From Gammaproteobacteria bacterium (lineage in GTDB: Bacteria; Pseudomonadota; Gammaproteobacteria; SZUA-152): DNA of 64,000 bases. The position numbers and the translations under genes are program-made. The stretch is from positions 1-64,000 of the forward strand of contig JAKIUF010000001.1 in assembly GCA_021647705.1 (NCBI GenBank), given 5' to 3'. The notes under the pieces are model-generated. The model was given only the letters and a program-made list of their open reading frames with translations. It ran no database searches and was not told the DNA's origin. Shown piece by piece: positions 8,918-43,289 of the stretch (within the stretch, counting starts at the first letter, position 1; each line of letters opens with the position of its first letter).

Positions 8918-11620
8918 ATGATGACACGATTAAGAGCACTGGGCTTGAGTTTATTGTTGATGATAGTTTCAGCGCCCGGATTTACGGCGAGCAATTTGAC
9001 TAAGCTTGCTGAGCTTGCTGCGACAGTCCAGCCGGGTACTTTTGTAGAGCTTGAGATTGATGGAGATATATCAACATGCGAGGCGATGGTGCCCACCTTA
9101 CCTAAAAGGCATCCCGACGCATGCACGACTGGCCAGTCGTTTAGTAATCCTGAACACTGCCTTGTGCCACAGACTCCGTGGAAAAGTCTTGGGAATATTC
9201 TCGAATTTACCGATGAGGCTTTGTGGGATCCAGTAGATCGTGAGGTTTACATCATGGGTACGCGGAGGCCGTATAAGCGATGGGATCAAGGATTTGCTAA
9301 ATACTCCGAAGAGACGAACAGCTGGACGATTCTGGATCTTCCGCCGTTTGGTGTCGGAGCCCATGGTTATGATAATGGCGCTATCGATGTTGTCGGCAGA
9401 CGATACTATTGGTCACGGATATCAGCTGCCTACATTGTGTGGTCAATGAACCTGGATACGGGTGAATGGCAACGACTGCCCGATGCCCCCATAGATACGG
9501 GTGAATTTAGCGCCATCGATTTTTTCCCAGAACTTAACAAACTGGTTTTTTTTGATGGACATTATGGAGCCAGATCTGGCTCATACGGGTCTGAATATTC
9601 GCTATATGACCCGAATACGAACAAATGGGAGGCATCCACTGCTTTGGATGGACCCACTGCCGTGACTCAAGCACCCTTCGGTGCAATTTCTCATTTTAGT
9701 GAATACAATCCAAGCCACGGCGTGATGTTTTTCGGTGGTGGGTATCACCATACTAATGGTGGTCAACTTCCAGACCCAACACCGGGCATCGATGAGTCAC
9801 GACGATTCTACATGCTCGATAAAGACAGAGTAGTGACTCGGTTAGCGGATGCCCCAACCAAACTTGGGCAGCATGGTGAAGGTCCACTGCAAACCATCGA
9901 CCCCAACAGTGGCAATCTCGTCGTCTTTCAGGGGAAGCTCAACGATGGTTCTTGTCCCAATGGCCCGCTTCCGATCTGGGAGTACGATCTTGAAGAAGGA
10001 ATATGGAACCAAACGGGGGAGCATAATCTTTCGAATCTGTATTGCGATATGGATTCGGTCGTAGTGCCACTTTACGAATATGGGGTCAACTTCATTGTCT
10101 CCGTCAGGAATAACTCAAATTGCCGTGTGCATCTATATCGCCATTCCGCTATGGAGGCAACGCTACCAAGTATCACTACCCAGCCTGCTTCGCAAAGCAT
10201 TGAAGAAGGTTCAGCAGTAACATTCAGTGTGGCCGCCAGTGGCAGCGGTCCTCTGGAATATCAATGGTTTCGTAATGGTGATGGTAATGATGAGTTAATT
10301 GTTGGAGCGAACAGCGCCAACTTTACAATAGAGCCAGTAATGGTAGTTGATGATGGAGCAAGATATCGCAGCAAGGCAACCAACAGCTTGGGTGATGTGT
10401 TTAGTAATTACGCGACATTAAGTGTTGTCCGGGATGAAACTGCGCCAACACTGACCTCTGCAATGGCGCTTGGTGACACCCGCGTCGATATTCTGTTCAG
10501 TGAAACCGTCAATGCTGACAGTGCTGAAAACAGTGCCCATTATGAAATTGATCTTGGTATTAGCGTGACATCTGCCACCTTGAATGGAGACGGTCGCACC
10601 GTCAGTCTGGCAGTTAGCCAGCTCACGGAAGATATGATTTACACGGTGCAGGTCAGCAATGTGCAAGATTCGGCACAAACTCCCAATACTATTACTGCCC
10701 AGAGCAGCCGGACTTTTACCTATCGCACGGCAGACGGGTTTGAAGATGGTAACGCCGATGGTTGGAACAGTCTGAATACTGTTAACTGGGAAGTAGCACT
10801 AAATGAAGGTGATATGGCGTATTACCTCAATACAACAGATTTCGATAGCCCAGGCGGTGGTCGGTTGGGCGAATATTCCTTGTTGTCTGCGGAGTATGAT
10901 GACTTTACCTTTACGTTAGAGGCCAAACTGGGTGACGACGTAGCAGACAACGCAGCTGCTGACTATGCTGTGGTATTCGGGTTCCAGGACGCAAACAACT
11001 ATTATTACATGTTGTTTAATAATGATCAGAATTTAACCCAGTTGTTTAAAGTCATCAACGGTAGTCGTACATTGTTAGAGACGGCGAACAGTGGTGACTG
11101 GTTGAATGATAATGCGTACCACAGCATCGAAGTTAAGCGCATAGAAAGCGCTATCAGCGTACGTTTTGATGGCAACGTTATTTTGAATGCCAACGATGGC
11201 AGTCTGGGTGCAGGCAAAGTTGGTGTTGGTAGTTACAATGATTCTGCGTATTTTGATGATGTGAACGTAACCAGTGCGGTATCCGGTGGCGGCTCTAGTG
11301 GCGGTGGCTCAACAGGAGGAGGCTCAACGGGTGGAGGTTCAACCGGAGGTGGCTCAACGGGTGGAGGTTCAACCGGAGGTGGCTCAACCGGAGGAGGCTC
11401 AACCGGAGGAGGCTCAACCGGAGGAGGCTCAACCGGAGGAGGCTCAACCGGAGGAGGCTCAACCGGAGGAGGCTCAACAGGAGGTAGTTCAAGTGGTGGT
11501 GGGGCAGCGGGAGATGACGAAGGTGGAGGTGGCGCTCTTAGCCTCTTCTCAGGTCTTGCGTTATTACTGATCAGTGCTGGGAGGCTTCGTCGAAGAGTAC
11601 GTTTGTGTCATCAACTGTAG
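8918..11620 (+). CDS. modular kelch-type beta-propeller protein with Ig, concanavalin-like and GlyGly-CTERM-like regions
   Basis: About 900 residues. The start is set at ATG 8918 because AGGAGA lies 7 bases upstream and the product then begins MMTRLRALGLSLLLMIVSAPGFTA, a good signal peptide. Residues ~60-400 contain kelch / galactose-oxidase-type blades (VYIMGTRRP, YNPSHGVMFFGGGYHH, GNLVVFQGKL) with N.W and D.G.W turns, so a propeller that binds or oxidises carbohydrate is likely; no copper ligands could be assigned. An Ig domain (PSITTQPASQSIEEG...), a SwmB-like domain, the concanavalin-like module, 12-13 GGGST units and a GlyGly-CTERM-like end (hydrophobic LFSGLALLLISAG then RLRRRVR) follow. 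The C-terminal third is nearly identical to the preceding gene, indicating tandem duplication or domain shuffling with exchange of the N-terminal domain. Confidence 0.72.
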   Translation: MMTRLRALGLSLLLMIVSAPGFTASNLTKLAELAATVQPGTFVELEIDGDISTCEAMVPTLPKRHPDACTTGQSFSNPEHCLVPQTPWKSLGNILEFTDEALWDPVDREVYIMGTRRPYKRWDQGFAKYSEETNSWTILDLPPFGVGAHGYDNGAIDVVGRRYYWSRISAAYIVWSMNLDTGEWQRLPDAPIDTGEFSAIDFFPELNKLVFFDGHYGARSGSYGSEYSLYDPNTNKWEASTALDGPTAVTQAPFGAISHFSEYNPSHGVMFFGGGYHHTNGGQLPDPTPGIDESRRFYMLDKDRVVTRLADAPTKLGQHGEGPLQTIDPNSGNLVVFQGKLNDGSCPNGPLPIWEYDLEEGIWNQTGEHNLSNLYCDMDSVVVPLYEYGVNFIVSVRNNSNCRVHLYRHSAMEATLPSITTQPASQSIEEGSAVTFSVAASGSGPLEYQWFRNGDGNDELIVGANSANFTIEPVMVVDDGARYRSKATNSLGDVFSNYATLSVVRDETAPTLTSAMALGDTRVDILFSETVNADSAENSAHYEIDLGISVTSATLNGDGRTVSLAVSQLTEDMIYTVQVSNVQDSAQTPNTITAQSSRTFTYRTADGFEDGNADGWNSLNTVNWEVALNEGDMAYYLNTTDFDSPGGGRLGEYSLLSAEYDDFTFTLEAKLGDDVADNAAADYAVVFGFQDANNYYYMLFNNDQNLTQLFKVINGSRTLLETANSGDWLNDNAYHSIEVKRIESAISVRFDGNVILNANDGSLGAGKVGVGSYNDSAYFDDVNVTSAVSGGGSSGGGSTGGGSTGGGSTGGGSTGGGSTGGGSTGGGSTGGGSTGGGSTGGGSTGGGSTGGGSTGGSSSGGGAAGDDEGGGGALSLFSGLALLLISAGRLRRRVRLCHQL
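11285..11505 (+). repeat. 15-bp minisatellite encoding GGGST (about 13 units)
   Basis: Tandem 15-bp units inside the propeller gene. The last six to seven units are nearly identical in DNA, suggesting recent expansion. Confidence 0.9.
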
Positions 11621-33898: not shown

Positions 33899-33986
33899 TA
33901 AAATCTAACGCAAAGGCGCGAAGGTGCAGAGAACGCAGAGATATGTTTTTTGCCTGTTATTCTTTGCGTCTTCGCCGTGGATTTTA
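33899..33986. repeat. CTTTGCG-type palindromic repeat
   Basis: Left side AAAATCTAACGCAAAGGCGCGAAGG, right side TTCTTTGCGTCTTCGCCGTGGATTTTAG: an imperfect inverted repeat like those at 32005-32114 and 57102-57187. Its right end supplies the stop codon of the ABC ATPase gene (TTA at 33984-33986), so the element was inserted at, or has replaced, the end of that gene. Confidence 0.65.
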
Positions 33987-34664
33987 GTCGTCTTGATCGC
34001 CATGCTGTGAGTCACGTATGATCTTTCCATCATGAACCGTAACGACTCTTTGCGCATATGAAGCAATAGAAGCATCATGGGTTACAATAATCAACGTTTT
34101 CCCCTGCTGATGTAGCTGGCAAAACATATCCATAATATTCTTCCCGGTTTTACTGTCCAGATTTCCTGTGGGCTCATCTGCGATGATGATGTTCGGGTCA
34201 TTGGCCAAAGCCCGGGCAATAGCAACGCGCTGACGCTCTCCCCCGGAGAGTTTATTGGGTAAATGGGAGGCGCGATCAATTAAGCCGACTTGCGCTAGCA
34301 GTTGAAAAGCATTCTCTTTCCTTTTTTGTCGCGGGAGTTTTGCATATGCCATCGGCAATGCCACATTCCGCCATGCATTTAAACGTGGAAGCAGGTTAAA
34401 GTTTTGAAAGACAAAACCTATTTCACGTAGCCGAAGATTGGCCAGCTCAGTTTGTGTTAATGCTTTTACATCCTGCGATAAAAATGTCATGTGACCCGTC
34501 GTCGGTTTATCCAAAAAACCGATGATGTTCATTAATGTTGACTTTCCTGAGCCAGATTTCCCCATAATCGCAACAAATTCACCTTGTGATATGGAAAGGC
34601 TTGCATCTTCCAGCGCATGCAGTTTTGGCGGGTATATTTTGCTTATGTTTTCTAATTTAATCAT
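33984..34664 (-). CDS. ABC transporter ATP-binding protein, MacB/LolD type
   Basis: A 226-residue ATPase with Walker A (GKSGSGKSTLM), Q-loop (FVFQNFNLLPRL), signature LSGGERQRVAIARA, Walker B IIIADEPTGNLDS and H-loop VTHD. The motif set and length fit the stand-alone ATPases of type VII (MacB/LolD/FtsE-like) exporters. It starts 40 bases after the permease gene and is the last gene of the exporter operon (C39-TolC, adaptor, permease, ATPase). It should power the mechanical cycle that pushes periplasmic substrate through the adaptor and TolC. Its 3' end lies in a dispersed palindrome, so the last residues may be altered. Confidence 0.9.
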   Translation of the reverse strand: MIKLENISKIYPPKLHALEDASLSISQGEFVAIMGKSGSGKSTLMNIIGFLDKPTTGHMTFLSQDVKALTQTELANLRLREIGFVFQNFNLLPRLNAWRNVALPMAYAKLPRQKRKENAFQLLAQVGLIDRASHLPNKLSGGERQRVAIARALANDPNIIIADEPTGNLDSKTGKNIMDMFCQLHQQGKTLIIVTHDASIASYAQRVVTVHDGKIIRDSQHGDQDD

Positions 34665-34704: not shown

Positions 34705-35898
34705 TTATTCATAGCGCAAGGCCTCTACAGGCGAAAGTTTAGAGGCATAAGCTGCCGGGTAAAGTGAGAAGAAAAGCCCGACGCCAGAAGAAAATACTAA
34801 CGCAACGATAATGGCTGACCAGGATATTTTTACGGGGATTTCCATCAGTTCAGCGACCACCTGTGCGCAGGCAATACCAAAAACAGTGCCGACTACGCCA
34901 CCGAGAACACACAGCATGACACCTTCCAGTAAAAATTGATGGAGAATACTTGCATCAGTGGCACCAATCGCTTTTCGTATTCCAATTTCTTTGGTTCTTT
35001 CTTTTACAGTGACTAACATAATGTTCATTATGCCGATTCCGCCAACGAATAATGACAAGCTGGCAACACCTGTAATAATCAGTGTTGTTTGCATAATGAT
35101 CGCTTTTTCGCCCTTTAGCAGATCGGTCATGCCTTTGACCCAGTTTTTGCTTGTTTCACCATAAATCTGCCGAAGCACAGACTTAACTTCTCCAATGCTT
35201 TTTTCTACCGCATAGTCTTTATCAATGGTCAAATAAACGGTATCCAGAAACAGATAGGGCCACTCTTTTTTCATCACCGTGTATGGTATGTAGGCTTGTT
35301 CCGGCTTCGCATTATTCTGTAATGGCGGTAGATCATTCACAATACCGATGACTTTATATCGTCGGCCATCAATAATGATATTCTGGTTAAGAATGTTCTT
35401 CCCATTGGTTGACAGGCGTTTTGCGGCGGATTTGCTCAGCACACAAACCCGTTTTTTATGTTTTTCCTCGAAAACTGAAAAGTAGCGTCCGGAAAGCACT
35501 TCAAGATTTCGAACAATTTGATAACTGGGATATGTGCCATTGATAAAAAATTTGATGGACTTGCTTTGGTATTTGAAGCGGCTGTTTATGCGTAAAACAG
35601 GGGAGATGGCTTCAATCGCCGGAATTTTCTTTTCCAATGTTGCAATTGCTTTTAAATCGACAAATGTTGGCATCCCTGCAAGTATTTTTCCATCATCAAA
35701 TTCAGAGTTTTGCAACGTGATGGCGAGAAGATTTGCTCCCATCATTTTGATTTTATTCTGAATGACTTCCCGGTTTCCTTCTCCAATGGCAATGACGATA
35801 ATGACTGCGGCAATACCGACGACGATACCAATTGTTGTTAAAAAACTGCGCAACGGATTGGCAACAATATTCCATAAGGCAATTATTACTGCTTCCAT
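34705..35898 (-). CDS. MacB-type ABC permease (FtsX/MacB_PCD)
   Basis: A 397-residue permease. One N-terminal membrane helix (PLRSFLTTIGIVVGIAAVIIVIAIGEG) precedes a ~230-residue periplasmic domain of MacB_PCD type. The FtsX core follows with three helices (LIITGVASLSLFVGGIGIMNIMLV, GVMLCVLGGVVGTVFGIACAQVV, IIVALVFSSGVGLFFSLYP) and the KEIGIRKAIGATD coupling segment. The permease is split from the ATPase, unlike E. coli MacB. Proteins of this family move substrates from the periplasm, not the cytoplasm, through a TolC channel, which fits a Sec-exported precursor and a periplasmic C39 domain. A 44-base gap separates it from the adaptor gene. Confidence 0.9.
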   Translation of the reverse strand: MEAVIIALWNIVANPLRSFLTTIGIVVGIAAVIIVIAIGEGNREVIQNKIKMMGANLLAITLQNSEFDDGKILAGMPTFVDLKAIATLEKKIPAIEAISPVLRINSRFKYQSKSIKFFINGTYPSYQIVRNLEVLSGRYFSVFEEKHKKRVCVLSKSAAKRLSTNGKNILNQNIIIDGRRYKVIGIVNDLPPLQNNAKPEQAYIPYTVMKKEWPYLFLDTVYLTIDKDYAVEKSIGEVKSVLRQIYGETSKNWVKGMTDLLKGEKAIIMQTTLIITGVASLSLFVGGIGIMNIMLVTVKERTKEIGIRKAIGATDASILHQFLLEGVMLCVLGGVVGTVFGIACAQVVAELMEIPVKISWSAIIVALVFSSGVGLFFSLYPAAYASKLSPVEALRYE

Positions 35899-35942: not shown

Positions 35943-37436
35943 TTAATCCGAGGGGATTTCTGGAAAGGCTGCAAAATCTCCCTCGGCGTCATTGAAGTCA
36001 GGAAAGTCTTTCGGGTTGATAATGTTAATAGAAAATGATGAGCCATCGTCTTTAACCGATTGTCCACTTATATCACCCTGGTGATTGAAGGCGTCCCCAA
36101 ATTTTTTAAACATAGCATTTTCACCAGCAGTAAAAATCTCTGGATCATCATGTACCGTAAAATTTTGGTCGGGGGAGGACTCTGCGACAGCAATAATTCT
36201 ACTACCATTTTTGATGCCAATATTTCCTGTTGTAATCACTCTGTCGTCCACGCTGATCCCATGTACAATTTCGACATATTCGGTATCACTTAAACCGGTT
36301 TGCACGTATATTTTTTTAGCAATGCCTTGGTTATCGTTATACACAAATGCATTGCCACTTTCTTCGAGAATAGACTCTATGGGAAGTACCAGCTTATTTT
36401 TACTTTCAGCCACGATAATTTCTGCTTCAGCTTCAGTACCTAATTTCAAATTACTGGGTTTACTACCAATGATATTTGCGGTGACTTCGATGATATTGGG
36501 GCTGTCCCCACCAAAGACAGCCTGTTTTTTAATGACTTCCATGCCAATATCATTGACCCGGCCAGTGAGTACCTGTCCGTATTCTTCAAGATAAATTTCT
36601 ACTGTTTGACCGACGCTAACACGCGCAATGTCATAGGTATCAATTTGAAGCTTAACCTGCATTTTCTCAGGGTTAGCGATGCTCATGAGCGCTTCTTTTT
36701 CTCCAGAAGAGTTGTTATTGAGTTTTTTTCTGAGTTTAATCACTTTTCCATCAAATTCGGCGCGCTTGACTAGGTCGCGTTCTTTTTCAGCCAGCTCGTC
36801 ATATATGATTTTGGCTTTTTCATAAGTCAGTCTGGCAACCTTTACATCTACCACTTGTTTGTCACGTAACCTGTGAAGATTGGCTTGTTCTCCGGTGTAA
36901 CGTAGTTCCGCTTTTTTCAACTGTATGGTTGCTTCTTCATAGCGTTTAAAGGAAATTGCTTTTGCGTTAAATAGCTCCTTGGATACTTCTGATTCTTTTT
37001 GTTGTTTTTCATATTCAATTTTTGCCAATGTCATTTCTCGATTAGCAGTAACAATACTTTCTGACTCTTCTCCGCGCTCCAGTTCCTGAAGTTTATATTC
37101 TGCGGTGATCATATCCATTGTAGCGCTATTTTTTTCTTTTTTGATTTTATGGTCTTTTAGCGTGACTAGCGGTTGACCTTTTTTTATTTTTTCGCCTTGT
37201 TTGACATGAATTGTTTTTATATCATTAATGTCTTCCACCCATATTTCACTGTTTTGAGCAGAAATTATTTTCCCTCGTCCTTTTACCTTTTGCTTGATAT
37301 CCTTGAAAATAGCTGAAACGGTGACGACCTGAGGAATGTCTTCATCGGGGCTCATGTTTGAGCTAAAGCTCGGAATATAATAAATCAATACGGCTGATAT
37401 AATTAAAAATACGGCACTGATAATTATTTTTTTCAT
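35943..37436 (-). CDS. HlyD/MacA-type periplasmic adaptor with acidic C-terminal tail
   Basis: A 497-residue membrane-fusion protein. An N-terminal membrane anchor (KKIIISAVFLIISAVLIYYI) is followed by the lipoyl/barrel half (KGRGKIISAQNSEIWVED), a long coiled-coil hairpin (~100-230), the returning lipoyl half (GKVIKLRKKL...), the beta barrel and the membrane-proximal domain. It should link the MacB-type permease to the TolC domain encoded 6 bases upstream. The final ~75 residues, past the usual end of the family, are acidic and Asp/Phe-rich (DFPDFNDAEGDFAAFPEIPSD) and predicted disordered. Such a tail is not typical and might bind the substrate or the C39 domain. Confidence 0.87.
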   Translation of the reverse strand: MKKIIISAVFLIISAVLIYYIPSFSSNMSPDEDIPQVVTVSAIFKDIKQKVKGRGKIISAQNSEIWVEDINDIKTIHVKQGEKIKKGQPLVTLKDHKIKKEKNSATMDMITAEYKLQELERGEESESIVTANREMTLAKIEYEKQQKESEVSKELFNAKAISFKRYEEATIQLKKAELRYTGEQANLHRLRDKQVVDVKVARLTYEKAKIIYDELAEKERDLVKRAEFDGKVIKLRKKLNNNSSGEKEALMSIANPEKMQVKLQIDTYDIARVSVGQTVEIYLEEYGQVLTGRVNDIGMEVIKKQAVFGGDSPNIIEVTANIIGSKPSNLKLGTEAEAEIIVAESKNKLVLPIESILEESGNAFVYNDNQGIAKKIYVQTGLSDTEYVEIVHGISVDDRVITTGNIGIKNGSRIIAVAESSPDQNFTVHDDPEIFTAGENAMFKKFGDAFNHQGDISGQSVKDDGSSFSINIINPKDFPDFNDAEGDFAAFPEIPSD

Positions 37437-37442
37437 GATATT

Positions 37443-39476
37443 TTACAGGGAGTCTGTTCCTAGTACACCGACGGCTTTGGTTAATTCAATCTCTGATAGC
37501 TTGTAATCGACCAGCGCACTGAAACGGTCAACTTTTAATTGCAGGAGTTCCAGTTGTGTTCGCTGTAAATCGTTACTGGCAATAACACCGCGGCTAAACC
37601 GTAATTCATCAATGCTCAAATTTTCTGCCGCAAGTTTTAGTGTTTTTTCAAGAATTTCATACCGTACTTTGGTGGATTGTAAATTTCTTATTGCTTCATT
37701 GACTTCGAAGGAAATCTGGTCTTTTGTTCGTCTTATGCTGACGGAAAGATCAAAAATCCGGGATAATATTTGTGCTGTTCGGCTTTTTGTTGTGCCATTG
37801 TCATTAAGAGGAATGGTGACAGTTGCACCAATCCGCCAGGAGTCTTGCTCAATTCCATTTAAAGCTCCATTGAAGCGAGGTTGTTCTCCTCTGCGTCGAA
37901 ATGAGGCATTCAACGATAGCGATGAGTCGTCAGTGCTTTTCGCATCAGACAAATCAAGGTTGAGGTTTTCTCTTGCGTAAAGAAAATGCTTCAATTCTTT
38001 TCTTTCTTTTAGTGCTTTATTGATCATATTGTTTTGGTCAACATCTATGGGGCTATAATTGATATCTTGTACAGGATTTATGTGCTTCACGTTGGACTGC
38101 CCGATCAGTATAGCCAGTTGCTCTTGTGAAGATTTATAACTTCGTTTCGCATCAATCAGGTTGCTTTGGTCTCTGGAAAGCTGTACTTCCATTTTTGATG
38201 CCTCAATTTCGGCTAAATTTCCCAACTTAAATTGGATTTTTGCAGTTTCTAGCTGCTTCTGGGTTTGTTTGAGGTTTTCCTCGGTAAATCTTACCAGTTG
38301 CACGGCTTTGACAAAATTATAATAGCTGCCAATGACTTCAAAAATGATACTTTGTTGATCAAGGTCATACTGGTTTTGTGCGGTGCGCCAAGTATTGAGT
38401 GACCTTGACAAGGGAGAGTATCCCGCAACACGCCCATCTTTTGTCAGTGGTTGTAAATAGTCAATACGAATGCCGGGTCCTAGTGTATATTTTTTTTCGT
38501 TTTGTCCTGGGGTGGAGGGATCATTCATCGCGACGCCGATATCTACCGTAGTGGTCAATTTTCCGCCCAGTTTGCTGGAAACTAACTTATCCATTTTCCA
38601 TTGATATTTTGCTTCATTTTGGGTTGTTGTATTGAGCGTTCGATTAGCATCTATTTCATCTAAATTCCTGCTGGCAGAGAAAACCAACTCGGTTTTGGGT
38701 GTGTAGTTAGCAAATACAGAGTCAAGCTGTGCCTGGCTGAGTTTTAACCTCTCTTCTGCGGCTTTAATGGCGGTACCATCGGAAAGCGCCATTTCCACGG
38801 CTTTTTTTAAGGATAGTGCCAGGCCTGATTTTTGTGGGATAGATGATGTGGGGGGAAGTGCAAATGATGAGGTTTCCAGAGTTTGAGTGGGGAAGGCTAA
38901 AACAATTCCATCCCATATTGTAGAAAAGTCTTCTCTGCTGTGTGTGGCTTTTCCTGTTCCAGGATCGAAAAAAGTAACGGTTTTTGCATCGCTTGCCAGG
39001 ATCACCACATAATGACTATCACTAATATAAGCAAGAACAGGGTTTTTCTCTTGTATCAGGCGTGCCCAGTTCCAGCGCTGCCCTTTTGTTTTTACGCCAA
39101 GAGATTCTGCGGATTGTTTTAACCCCAGCAATGTGGTTCCCACGTTCATTTTGGTTCTGGACAGTTTTGCCAGTTTGTCTTCTGTGATTTCTATATCATA
39201 GCGTGACAGTATGAAACGTAAGGCTGCTGGGCCACATGTCCATGAGGTTGTTTGTAAAAAAGGCGTGTAGTCCGAGTGCTGCGATATATTTTTATTATTG
39301 GTGAATGCCGGGGCCGACGTAAAAGTTATATTTTCAGATGATGGTCTTATATCAATTTGCGTGTCAGCATCGGAAAAACCTGAAGTAATAAATAATACCA
39401 AAAATATAACTGGGGACTGAAAAGCATCGCCGAACCTAGCGTATTTCATGATAAATTGAAAATAATTATTAAACAT
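37443..39476 (-). CDS. C39 peptidase-TolC fusion outer-membrane protein
   Basis: A 677-residue fusion. A Sec signal (hydrophobic SPVIFLVLFITSGFSDA, to ~37) is followed by a C39 peptidase domain (~68-195) with all expected residues: oxyanion Gln75 and catalytic Cys81 (FLQTTSWTCGPAALRF), His155 (DSHYVVILA) and Asp171 (FFDPGTG). After a Pro/Ser linker, ~220-675 is a TolC-type outer-membrane efflux protein with two repeats (LKKAVEMALSDGTAIKAAEERL..., and the second half from MINKALKERKEL). C39 domains normally sit on the cytoplasmic N-terminus of bacteriocin ABC exporters and cut after a double-glycine leader; here the domain would be periplasmic, at the channel entrance. It is the first gene of the exporter operon. 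An alternative start at ATG 39449 gives a shorter signal peptide. Confidence 0.88.
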   Translation of the reverse strand: MFNNYFQFIMKYARFGDAFQSPVIFLVLFITSGFSDADTQIDIRPSSENITFTSAPAFTNNKNISQHSDYTPFLQTTSWTCGPAALRFILSRYDIEITEDKLAKLSRTKMNVGTTLLGLKQSAESLGVKTKGQRWNWARLIQEKNPVLAYISDSHYVVILASDAKTVTFFDPGTGKATHSREDFSTIWDGIVLAFPTQTLETSSFALPPTSSIPQKSGLALSLKKAVEMALSDGTAIKAAEERLKLSQAQLDSVFANYTPKTELVFSASRNLDEIDANRTLNTTTQNEAKYQWKMDKLVSSKLGGKLTTTVDIGVAMNDPSTPGQNEKKYTLGPGIRIDYLQPLTKDGRVAGYSPLSRSLNTWRTAQNQYDLDQQSIIFEVIGSYYNFVKAVQLVRFTEENLKQTQKQLETAKIQFKLGNLAEIEASKMEVQLSRDQSNLIDAKRSYKSSQEQLAILIGQSNVKHINPVQDINYSPIDVDQNNMINKALKERKELKHFLYARENLNLDLSDAKSTDDSSLSLNASFRRRGEQPRFNGALNGIEQDSWRIGATVTIPLNDNGTTKSRTAQILSRIFDLSVSIRRTKDQISFEVNEAIRNLQSTKVRYEILEKTLKLAAENLSIDELRFSRGVIASNDLQRTQLELLQLKVDRFSALVDYKLSEIELTKAVGVLGTDSL

Positions 39477-40276: not shown

Positions 40277-41161
40277 GTGCCACATAAAAATTCGACAAAA
40301 CTATCCCACAAAGAGCGTGTTAATACTATTATTGAGTATATTGACGTACACATTGAAAATCCTGCATGCCGACTGGATTTGGACACATTGGCTAGCGTAG
40401 CCTGCCTTTCACATTATCATATTTCCCGAATTTTCAAGTCGCATACCGGCGAAGGAATTCACCAGTACGTTAAAAGGTTGCGTTTAGAAAATGCGGCTAA
40501 ACAGCTTTTATACAGCAAAAAAACAATTCAACACATTGCGGAATTAAGCTCATATAATAATTTCCCAGCATTTACAAAAGCCTTTAAACAACACTTTGGA
40601 TGTCCGCCCAGCGATTTTCGAGAAAGAAAAAATATAGTTAATTTTCATGATATATATCCTGTTCATACCGAAAGACCGGTAAAAGGTAAAAATATTATTG
40701 ATATGCAAACAAAAAATTTACCTGATCAAAAAGTGGTCTTTATGCTGAAAATTGGTCCTTATGAGGATGCTGCAAATCGTGCCTGGGCAGGTTTAATGCA
40801 ATACGCCTATTCTCAACAGCTCATAACCAGAGAAACAATAAATATTGGCATTACGTACGATATGCCTGAATTCACACATGAAGAAAAAATTCGCTATTGT
40901 GCTTGCATCACAATCGATCATAATCACAAAACACAGGGGGATATTGGTACAAAGTTAATTTCGGGTGGCCGCTTTGCAACTTTTATACACCAGGGACCGT
41001 ATGCAGAATTATGTTACACATATGATTACATATATAACGATTGGTATTCCAAAAATAACGTTACTCTCAGTAATCATCCCAGTTTTTCAATTTATCTCAC
41101 CGACCCAACAAAAGTCGATCCTGAAAATTTACTTACGGAAGTTTATGTGCCGATTGAATAA
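40277..41161 (+). CDS. AraC-family regulator with GyrI-like effector domain
   Basis: A 294-residue protein starting at GTG 40277 behind GGGAGGGGGAA. Residues ~15-115 form the AraC/XylS double helix-turn-helix (LDLDTLASVACLSHYHISRIFKSHTGEGIHQYVKRLRLENAA; IAELSSYNNFPAFTKAFKQHFGCPPSDFR). Residues ~140-294 are a GyrI/Rob-like small-molecule-binding domain (KIGPYEDAANRAWAGLMQYA, GGRFATFIHQGPYAEL, VYVPIE). Rob- and SoxS-like members activate efflux genes in response to ligands. Lying divergent to the exporter operon, it is the likely local regulator; the ligand is unknown. Confidence 0.85.
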   Translation: MPHKNSTKLSHKERVNTIIEYIDVHIENPACRLDLDTLASVACLSHYHISRIFKSHTGEGIHQYVKRLRLENAAKQLLYSKKTIQHIAELSSYNNFPAFTKAFKQHFGCPPSDFRERKNIVNFHDIYPVHTERPVKGKNIIDMQTKNLPDQKVVFMLKIGPYEDAANRAWAGLMQYAYSQQLITRETINIGITYDMPEFTHEEKIRYCACITIDHNHKTQGDIGTKLISGGRFATFIHQGPYAELCYTYDYIYNDWYSKNNVTLSNHPSFSIYLTDPTKVDPENLLTEVYVPIE

Positions 41162-41280: not shown

Positions 41281-42426
41281 TTATTCATTAGATATTGTTA
41301 CCCAGTGTGGAAAATTATTATTTAACCCCTCATTTGTTAACCGTTTTGGGCCTTCTTTTTTGTTGATGGATAATTTCCATATGTCAGCATAAGGTTCTTC
41401 CCGAAGAAAACTTTTTGGAATGTTTTTAAAGTCTGGAATGTCTTCAGGAAGATATTCATGTTTGTGCGCATCTCCAGGGTAGTGCTTATCTTCTGATAAA
41501 TTATGATTTCGCAAATGGGTTGCATTTATTCGGCTATATGTAAGATATTGGCTATCTGGGGACCAAGTCGGTGAAAAATTTACATCGCCTTCCTCAGTTA
41601 ATCGCCTAACCAATTCTCCATCCTGATTGGCCAAATAGATGTTGCCTGGACTGGCGTCCATATATGCTAAAAATCTACCGTCCGGGGACCATTTTCCCAA
41701 TATTCCATTATCAATAAAGAATGCCTGATTTGAACCATCTTCATCCATCGTGAACATTTGCCATTTTTCGTTACGATTGGTCGTGAAAAGTATTTTTTTG
41801 CTGTCTTTGATGGTGCCTGGGGCGCTATTAACCACATTTTTTTTCGCAAAAGTCAGTTGTAGAGGTTTTGATCCATTAGTATTCATCACCCATATATCGC
41901 TTTCTGTTGCTGTTAACATGTTTGTTATGGGGTCGCTGAATATTTTGCTGCGGGTGAAATATATTTTGTTTCCCGACAGAGACCAGACTGGGTCAGAGTC
42001 CATTACCTTTCCGCTGGTTAATTGTTTGAATTTTCCTTTTTTATATAACCATATATGACTATTTAGCCAATCAGTGTTGTGGTTTTTATTGGGTGAATGA
42101 TCTGGAGAAATTAACAATAATTCACTTTTTCCAGGTGATGCCTGGATGGAGAATATGGATTTCCCTTCAATTATGGGTATGCCGTCATTACCATTTTCTG
42201 TCATGGCCTTGATGGTAAAAATCTTCTTTTCTTTAGAGGTAAGGGAACTATTGTAGGACTCAGAGATATAAATAATATTTTTTGTTTTGGGGATGTTTTC
42301 ATTTATAACTTTAAAAAAATATTCTTTATCGTCATTCGGTTGATCAGCAAAAAGGGTAGGGCTAAGTAAAAATAAAGCTATTACTAAAATCCCGGGTGTA
42401 TAAGTATGGATTAATTTGTTTGTCAT
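41281..42426 (-). CDS. TolB-like periplasmic beta-propeller protein
   Basis: About 381 residues from ATG 42426, which opens a signal peptide (MTNKLIHTYTPGILVIALFLLSPTLFA); an upstream in-frame ATG at 42522 would bury it. The body holds WD40-like PD40 blades: SDPVWSLSGNKIYFTR, KKILFTTNRNEKWQMFTMDEDGSN, LGKWSPDGRFLAYMDA, FSPTWSPDSQYLTYSRI and NNFPHWVTI. TolB-type propellers bind proteins or peptides in the periplasm. It lies between the candidate precursor peptide and the exporter on the same strand as both, so a role as chaperone, carrier or immunity factor for the exported peptide is possible but unproven. Confidence 0.72.
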   Translation of the reverse strand: MTNKLIHTYTPGILVIALFLLSPTLFADQPNDDKEYFFKVINENIPKTKNIIYISESYNSSLTSKEKKIFTIKAMTENGNDGIPIIEGKSIFSIQASPGKSELLLISPDHSPNKNHNTDWLNSHIWLYKKGKFKQLTSGKVMDSDPVWSLSGNKIYFTRSKIFSDPITNMLTATESDIWVMNTNGSKPLQLTFAKKNVVNSAPGTIKDSKKILFTTNRNEKWQMFTMDEDGSNQAFFIDNGILGKWSPDGRFLAYMDASPGNIYLANQDGELVRRLTEEGDVNFSPTWSPDSQYLTYSRINATHLRNHNLSEDKHYPGDAHKHEYLPEDIPDFKNIPKSFLREEPYADIWKLSINKKEGPKRLTNEGLNNNFPHWVTISNE

Positions 42427-42926
42427 ATTTTTACTTGTTTTAATTGTTGTTTTATTCAATAGGGGATTTATAGGCTGCGGGAAGTTAATTCTAAAGTTGT
42501 ATTTTTGTGGTTTAAATTTCACCCGGCAAGATGGGTGCTTGTATCTCTAGCACGAATTTCTTGCAAGTCTAATTGTTTGGTTTTCAAGGGTGGGATAATT
42601 ATTTATTTTTTATGATGATATAAATGCCCCGCTCAAAAAATAATAGTGGTAAATATAAAGGAAAAAAATCGTGTTTTTCTTCCTTTTCATGAAAAACATC
42701 ATGTTTTTTAGGATGGCTTAACAAAGTTTTTCAATATCATACCTTCTGATGGTTTTATAAAAGAAGAGTCAAGAAAAAGAAGTCAATAATCTTAACAAAT
42801 AAAATATTAATATCCTCTTCCTGACCCTGATGGACTGCCGGGTTTATTTCATGTGTCGCATGATAACTGCACTTTAATTTCTATTTTTATTCAGTTAGCA
42901 GAAACAAACCTATCCGTTACCTATGC
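42427..42926. other. intergenic, AT-rich
   Basis: 500 bases between the propeller gene and the precursor peptide gene. AT-rich with no recognised gene or clear terminator; a promoter for the propeller gene is likely here. Confidence 0.35.
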
Positions 42927-43289
42927 TTAACATCTAAGGCCAATGCTGTAATTCGGCATGTTGAATTGTCCTTGACGAAACACGTTTCCTCGACACCATA
43001 CCTGAATAAACTGTCCAGCATTAATGTTATGTCCTCCGATGTTATACCATTGGCCACTAGGCAGTGTGGCTTGATGTGGTGGGTGAGAATTACTGTCAGC
43101 TTGGAAAACTTGTGTCCCTGAGGTGGAAATACTCCAATATATTTGGCCTGCACCAACAGCGGAAATCATTTCCTGTGAGTTGAGGTTTTGAACCTGTGGC
43201 ACTTGGTCATTCATGTTTGAGGCAAAAGTCGTCGATGCGCCAGCTAAAGATAAAGCCATTGTAAATGCAAGAGCAGTAAGTTTATTCAT
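42927..43289 (-). CDS. candidate double-glycine-leader peptide precursor with Sec signal
   Basis: A 120-residue protein with a strong AAGGAGAG ribosome-binding site. Residues 1-23 are a Sec signal peptide (MNKLTALAFTMALSLAGASTTFA). Residues 24-47 then resemble a double-glycine leader: relative to a cut after Ala47 there are Leu at -12, Asn -11, Glu -8, Met -7, Gly -2 and Ala -1 (LNSQEMISAVGA). The remaining 73 residues (48-120) are rich in Gly, Asn, Gln, Ser and aromatics, with two cysteines (99 and the C-terminal 120) that could form a disulfide. It is most simply a secreted bacteriocin-like or signalling peptide matured in two steps, with the second cut by the periplasmic C39 domain encoded at 37443-39476. 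No homologue is recognised; a non-peptide-toxin secreted protein remains possible. Confidence 0.7.
   Translation of the reverse strand: MNKLTALAFTMALSLAGASTTFASNMNDQVPQVQNLNSQEMISAVGAGQIYWSISTSGTQVFQADSNSHPPHQATLPSGQWYNIGGHNINAGQFIQVWCRGNVFRQGQFNMPNYSIGLRC

Follow-up and report, generated by a model that had tools for sequence, protein, structure and literature searches.

Pumps of the MacAB type move substrates from the periplasm to the outside of the cell by mechanotransmission, including Sec-exported proteins such as STII and the dispersins, and they also export macrolides and lipids (PMC8277102). In Aat/CexE, too, a Sec-exported protein is taken from the periplasm by a MacAB-class pump (PMC7943197). 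The leaders of C39 peptidase substrates carry hydrophobic residues at positions −12, −7 and −4 and end in GG, GA or GS (PMC10885120). Finally, one C39 peptidase, FapD, is periplasmic, and its active-site cysteine is required for secretion (PMC5557850).

The locus described here lies within a 64,000-nucleotide stretch of a gammaproteobacterial contig (JAKIUF010000001.1), referred to below as the window. It encodes a C39 peptidase fused to a TolC-type channel, a MacAB-type pump and, nearby, a candidate secreted substrate.

A C39 peptidase domain on a TolC-type channel

The fusion gene (37443..39476, minus strand; 677 aa; PF03412 and PF02321) has homologs in two other assemblies. The initial annotation had described a signal sequence, a C39 domain and a full TolC-like domain, and all three are recovered. 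A signal-peptide-like hydrophobic stretch is found at residues about 23–33, and no lipobox was seen at this N-terminus. The peptidase domain (residues 73–195; 38892..39260, minus strand) matches Peptidase_C39 (PF03412, E=4e-25) in Pfam and is aligned by phmmer to PCAT1 (4ry2, E=4e-9) and ComA (3k8u, E=9e-6). The channel part (residues 221–677; 37446..38816, minus strand) matches TIGR01844 and, in two stretches, the Pfam family OEP (PF02321, E=9e-33), and residues 369–674 are matched by TolC structures (phmmer). The proposed active-site residues are likewise present where predicted: Cys81 (39234-39236), His155 (39012-39014), Asp171 (38964-38966) and the oxyanion Gln75 (39252-39254), all on the minus strand. 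These four residues, a Cys–His–Asp triad with oxyanion glutamine as in an active C39 peptidase, are invariant across the three fusion homologs; in the alignment with PCAT1, the triad falls on that enzyme's catalytic residues. By alignment, the active-site geometry would be that of solved C39 structures. An AlphaFold model of the full-length fusion, with only three sequences as input, reached a mean pLDDT of 33.

These observations support an intact, periplasmic C39 domain carried by a TolC-type channel. The earlier suggestion that the peptidase sits in the periplasm at the mouth of the channel thus stands for the compartment and the channel, but is not established for the mouth: TolC has its N-terminus on the outer face of the barrel, in the equatorial region. 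For this reason, the C39 domain is probably suspended alongside the duct by the flexible linker of about 20 residues (about 198–220) that separates it from the channel part.

Conservation and rarity of the fusion

A search for other proteins combining C39 and OEP domains, as the initial annotation had proposed, returned two further fusions. One, 76% identical, occurs in a same-genus genome (G382:C178; contig JAADIL010000257.1 of a Gammaproteobacteria MAG); the other, 84% identical, occurs on a 5,954-base contig (L041; JAJRQN010000038.1) from a MAG labelled Bacteroidetes. Both are uninterrupted and accompanied by the pump operon as in the window. In G384, the locus is as in the window, with a permease 98% identical, and its two contigs end on either side of the expected position of the channel gene. 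L041 carries a complete pump cassette despite the Bacteroidetes label of its MAG, and its own assembly (G768) returned no match to the candidate substrate described below; this contig is probably misbinned or, as another possibility, its cassette was acquired by transfer. dN/dS is 0.12–0.13 for the C39 domain and 0.11–0.12 for the channel part. The C39 half is under strong purifying selection equal to that on the channel half and, with a ratio of about 0.12 like that of the channel part, the peptidase has been retained by selection.

Within the class and phylum genome samples, the C39–TolC fusion is rare. No second fusion was found among 369 genomes of the class, with the channel domain checked in the best 30 loci only, or among 399 genomes of the phylum, where the threshold was E<=1e-20 and only a few candidates were scored in each. 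No relative was found in viral contigs, and no plasmid record reached 80% query coverage. An alphaproteobacterial match (L043) proved to be an ordinary TolC with MacAB and without C39, and the other C39 matches inspected within the order were ABC-type or lacked the cysteine. The arrangement had been put forward as undescribed. This holds for the fusion itself, of which we found no description in the open-access literature (which omits most subscription papers), but not for a periplasmic C39 peptidase as such, given FapD (PMC5557850).

A MacAB-type pump operon

Three genes follow the fusion gene directly on the minus strand, with gaps of 6–44 bases. The first begins 6 nt after the fusion gene and encodes a MacA/HlyD-type periplasmic adaptor (35943..37436; 497 aa; PF13437 1e-9, TIGR01730 2e-23); the others encode a MacB-type permease with MacB_PCD and FtsX domains (34705..35898; 397 aa; PF12704 1e-33, PF02687 5e-21, NF007826 4.5e-60) and a MacB/LolD-type ATPase (33984..34664; 226 aa; PF00005 1e-34, MacB NF007826 6e-75). 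The NF007826 matches fall under the full-length cut-off because the permease and ATPase halves are separate genes. A MacB-type permease and ATPase are therefore encoded in one operon with a MacA-type adaptor and a TolC-type factor, as in MacAB–TolC systems. Because pumps of this type work on periplasmic substrates, a periplasmic C39 domain on the duct makes sense. By analogy, the pump of the window would draw its substrate from the periplasm, and the Sec signal on the candidate precursor is consistent with this. An AraC-type regulator with a GyrI-like ligand domain (40277..41161, plus strand; PF12833, PF06445) lies between the precursor gene and the pump operon, and has an equivalent position in G382. 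Promoter and terminator scans returned sites no more numerous than in shuffled sequence.

A candidate substrate with two leaders

The initial annotation had guessed that the peptide encoded at 42927 is the substrate, and its sequence strengthens this guess. The proposed precursor (42927..43289, minus strand; 120 aa), encoded outside the transcription unit of the channel gene, matched no Pfam family and belongs to a family of eight members in five genomes of the genus, with at most three per genome. Residues 1–23, MNKLTALAFTMALSLAGASTTFA (43221..43289, minus strand), form a Sec signal peptide, found in all eight members. This is followed by a second leader of the double-glycine type (residues 24–47; 43149..43220, minus strand), ending LNSQEMISAVGA, with a predicted cut before Gly48. 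The predicted mature domain (residues 48–120; 42930..43148, minus strand) is beta-rich and contains the invariant cysteines C99 and C120. In every member of the family, the Sec signal is followed by a leader ending [DEN]L[SN].QEM.S[VA][VI]G[AS], in the register L−12, E−8, M−7, (V,I,A)−4, G−2, (A,S)−1; at position −4 the window precursor has alanine in place of a larger hydrophobic residue. What looks like “GAG” varies at its third residue (GAS in L058), and this variation supports a cut after GA or GS. Mean pairwise identity within the family is 0.76 for residues 35–47, the best-conserved part, compared with 0.56 for the signal, 0.54 for the spacer and 0.48 for the core. An AlphaFold model leaves the leader unordered and places a confident beta-domain from residue 50, just past the predicted cut. 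Fold searches returned generic beta-sandwich matches only, none at E<=0.001, and one leader resembled lantibiotic-leader models weakly (E 0.04–0.25), at a level not significant alone.

Adjoining the precursor gene is a gene for a secreted TolB-like beta-propeller (41281..42522, minus strand; 413 aa; PF07676 2e-12, TIGR02800 4e-22). Such a propeller stands beside three precursors, those of the window (41281-42522), G382 and G384:C154 (L039:9784-10929 and L060:7783-8904), and may be a candidate partner, immunity protein or chaperone.

Distribution and exchange of the precursor

Among same-genus genomes, the pump cassette occurs in three of the five with precursors—one of them G384, with its channel gene in an assembly gap—and in none of the seven without. 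Two genomes share one arrangement of precursor, regulator and pump, and a third agrees over the length that its contigs cover. G385 and G386, which are 86% and 73% complete, have precursors and no detected cassette. Orphan precursor copies adjacent to carA were also observed in the window's own genome (L062:737-1105; G000:C30) and in G384 (L061:3546-3911; G384:C55), with identical cores and diverged leaders. Orphan precursors would have to be processed by a machine encoded elsewhere.

The precursor cores of the window (42927-43289) and of L057:4568-4933, alleles of one locus beside rnr, are only 56% identical (dS 1.3), while the permeases of the window and G384 loci are 98% identical (dS 0.34). 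This disparity suggests that the precursor gene may have been exchanged in place, as we would expect of antagonistic or otherwise variable cargo.

Proposed mechanism and alternative explanations

Taken together, and on the evidence of sequence, these features make it likely that the locus encodes a two-step secretion and maturation machine, running from Sec export through a periplasmic C39 cut to expulsion by a MacAB-type pump. The precursor, with its two tandem N-terminal leaders, would be exported by Sec, and signal peptidase would remove residues 1–23 by cutting at 23|24. The duct-tethered C39 domain would then recognize the second leader (residues 24–47) and cut after Gly-Ala or Gly-Ser, at A47|G48 in the window precursor. 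Once released, the beta-domain (about 73 residues, probably with one disulfide) would be carried by the MacA/MacB-type pump and pushed out via the fusion's own channel. The fusion could raise the enzyme's local concentration at the exit, or could make cleavage a condition for entry; in the latter case, a protease on the duct might turn cleavage into a ticket for exit, coupling it to the outer-membrane step.

It is also conceivable, if unlikely, that the pump performs ordinary MacAB-type efflux, that the C39 domain has another target, such as incoming peptides, destroyed for self-protection, or an envelope protein, and that the precursor's partner is encoded elsewhere. The export of macrolides and lipids by MacAB pumps (PMC8277102), the genomes with precursors and no cassette, and a second, PA2778-like C39 lipoprotein (L063) encoded in the window's genome would all fit such a reading; the conserved arrangement of precursor, regulator and pump, and a precursor leader that obeys the C39 rules in register, argue against it. 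Less probable still is a C39 domain that holds its substrate without cutting, like the C39-like domain of HlyB. Some type I exporters do have non-catalytic C39-like domains (PMC8277102), and cleavage by the fusion is something we infer; but domains of the HlyB type have lost the cysteine, whereas the three fusion homologs retain all four residues (Cys, His, Asp and Gln), and the adjacent precursor has a cuttable GG-type leader. That an assembly or gene-calling artifact joined two genes, the error against which the initial annotation had cautioned, is improbable in the extreme: every copy seems to stem from a draft assembly of many contigs, and the two named assemblies are metagenomic, but the identical junction recurs uninterrupted in three independent assemblies at 76–84% identity (G382:C178 and L041 besides the window), without stops and with dN/dS of about 0.12 in both halves.

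If the favored machine of Sec export, periplasmic cleavage and pumping is real, it would place the protease that matures the substrate on the exit duct and unite maturation and outer-membrane passage in one complex, which suggests a previously undescribed way to finish a protein during its exit from the cell. The model also makes definite predictions of the substrate and of the site where it is cut.

Origin of the C39 domain and tandem leaders beside free enzymes

A tree of 51 rows divides, with support of 98/96, into 34 secreted FapD/FilB-like domains on one side and, on the other, 14 exporter-type (ABC) domains together with the three fused ones; the exact place of the fused domains is unsure, because their long branch joins another long branch. 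The separation from FapD/FilB-like domains suggests that an exporter-type C39 domain may have reached the periplasm by a route separate from that of FapD. The fused domain is not of the FapD type, scoring 44 bits against NF058616 where the cut-off is 330 and falling on the exporter side of the tree; nor is the protein a PCAT/AMS transporter, its C39 domain being fused to OEP and the pump encoded on separate genes.

Second leaders are not confined to the precursor family. A strict leader motif was found in six of 136 signal-bearing ORFs in the DNA examined: five precursors and one neighbor of an unrelated secreted C39 gene. Sec proteins beside free secreted C39 enzymes often have a second leader of this type, examples being LSDEELGGLRG[R], LTDHELSSLRGG and VDATELNSIRGG. 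With the motif fixed beforehand, held-out loci contained it in 5/63 signal-bearing ORFs near secreted C39 genes and in 0/122 elsewhere (Fisher p=0.004, a value that overstates the true significance, because the matches partly share descent, several being FapE-like). Sec proteins of this kind, whose double-glycine-type second leader is in canonical register, were observed beside secreted FapD-like enzymes at L078:7102-7968(-), L083:9479-10315, L087:9007-9534, L088:7874-8224 and 8929-9453, L089:6469-6816(-), L097:5550-6347(-), L103:7645-8187(-), L104:7624-8142 and L108:7361-8161. The free secreted C39 enzymes match FapD, and several neighbors, three of the six second-leader Sec proteins scanned, match FapE (NF058559). 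With the window's proteins as queries, no TolC or MacAB neighbors were found at the standalone secreted C39 loci. The window's genome additionally encodes a lipoprotein-type C39 protein (L063:9267-10265; G000:C1), with a PA2778-like N-terminus and a weak PF03412 match, unlinked to the cassette.

It is tempting, at somewhat less than even confidence, to propose a general and hitherto unrecognized “tandem leader” pathway of Gram-negative bacteria, in which Sec export is followed by a periplasmic C39 cut, at a double-glycine-type leader, that licenses outer-membrane crossing. Such a pathway would have had two or more origins, one involving free FapD-like enzymes, with FapE-like and other substrates, and another in which an exporter-type C39 domain was moved onto a MacAB-type TolC duct. 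This bears on what FapD cuts: the published Fap paper gives the FapD substrate as unknown and canonical C39 sites as absent from Fap proteins, and FapE-like proteins beside FapD-like enzymes carry a similar second leader.

Comparison with described secretion systems

The locus shares with FapD a periplasmic C39 peptidase and, on the proposed mechanism, an outer-membrane secretion step that needs it and Sec-exported substrates. However, FapD is a free protein that works with a pore, FapF, that is not TolC-type, and without an ABC pump, whereas the C39 domain of the window is fused and groups with exporter-type domains. The PCAT/AMS transporters (PCAT1, ComA, LahT, CylB) share with it the C39 triad and leaders with hydrophobic residues at −12, −7 and −4 and GG, GA or GS at −2/−1. 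PCATs, though, carry the peptidase in the cytoplasm as part of the ABC transporter; here it is fused to an outer-membrane duct, and the substrate would first pass through Sec. The composition of the locus is that of MacAB–TolC (STII) and Aat (dispersin/CexE), each with a MacB-type permease that has a periplasmic core domain, an ATPase, a MacA-type adaptor and a TolC-type duct, and each collecting a Sec-exported substrate from the periplasm, as proposed here. The substrate would also be finished in the periplasm, as in Aat. But MacAB–TolC and Aat have no peptidase, and finishing in Aat is acylation by AatD, whereas the window has a protease on the duct and a second leader on the precursor. The system is thus a variant of MacAB-type two-step secretion, whose parts are known separately and whose combination is new.
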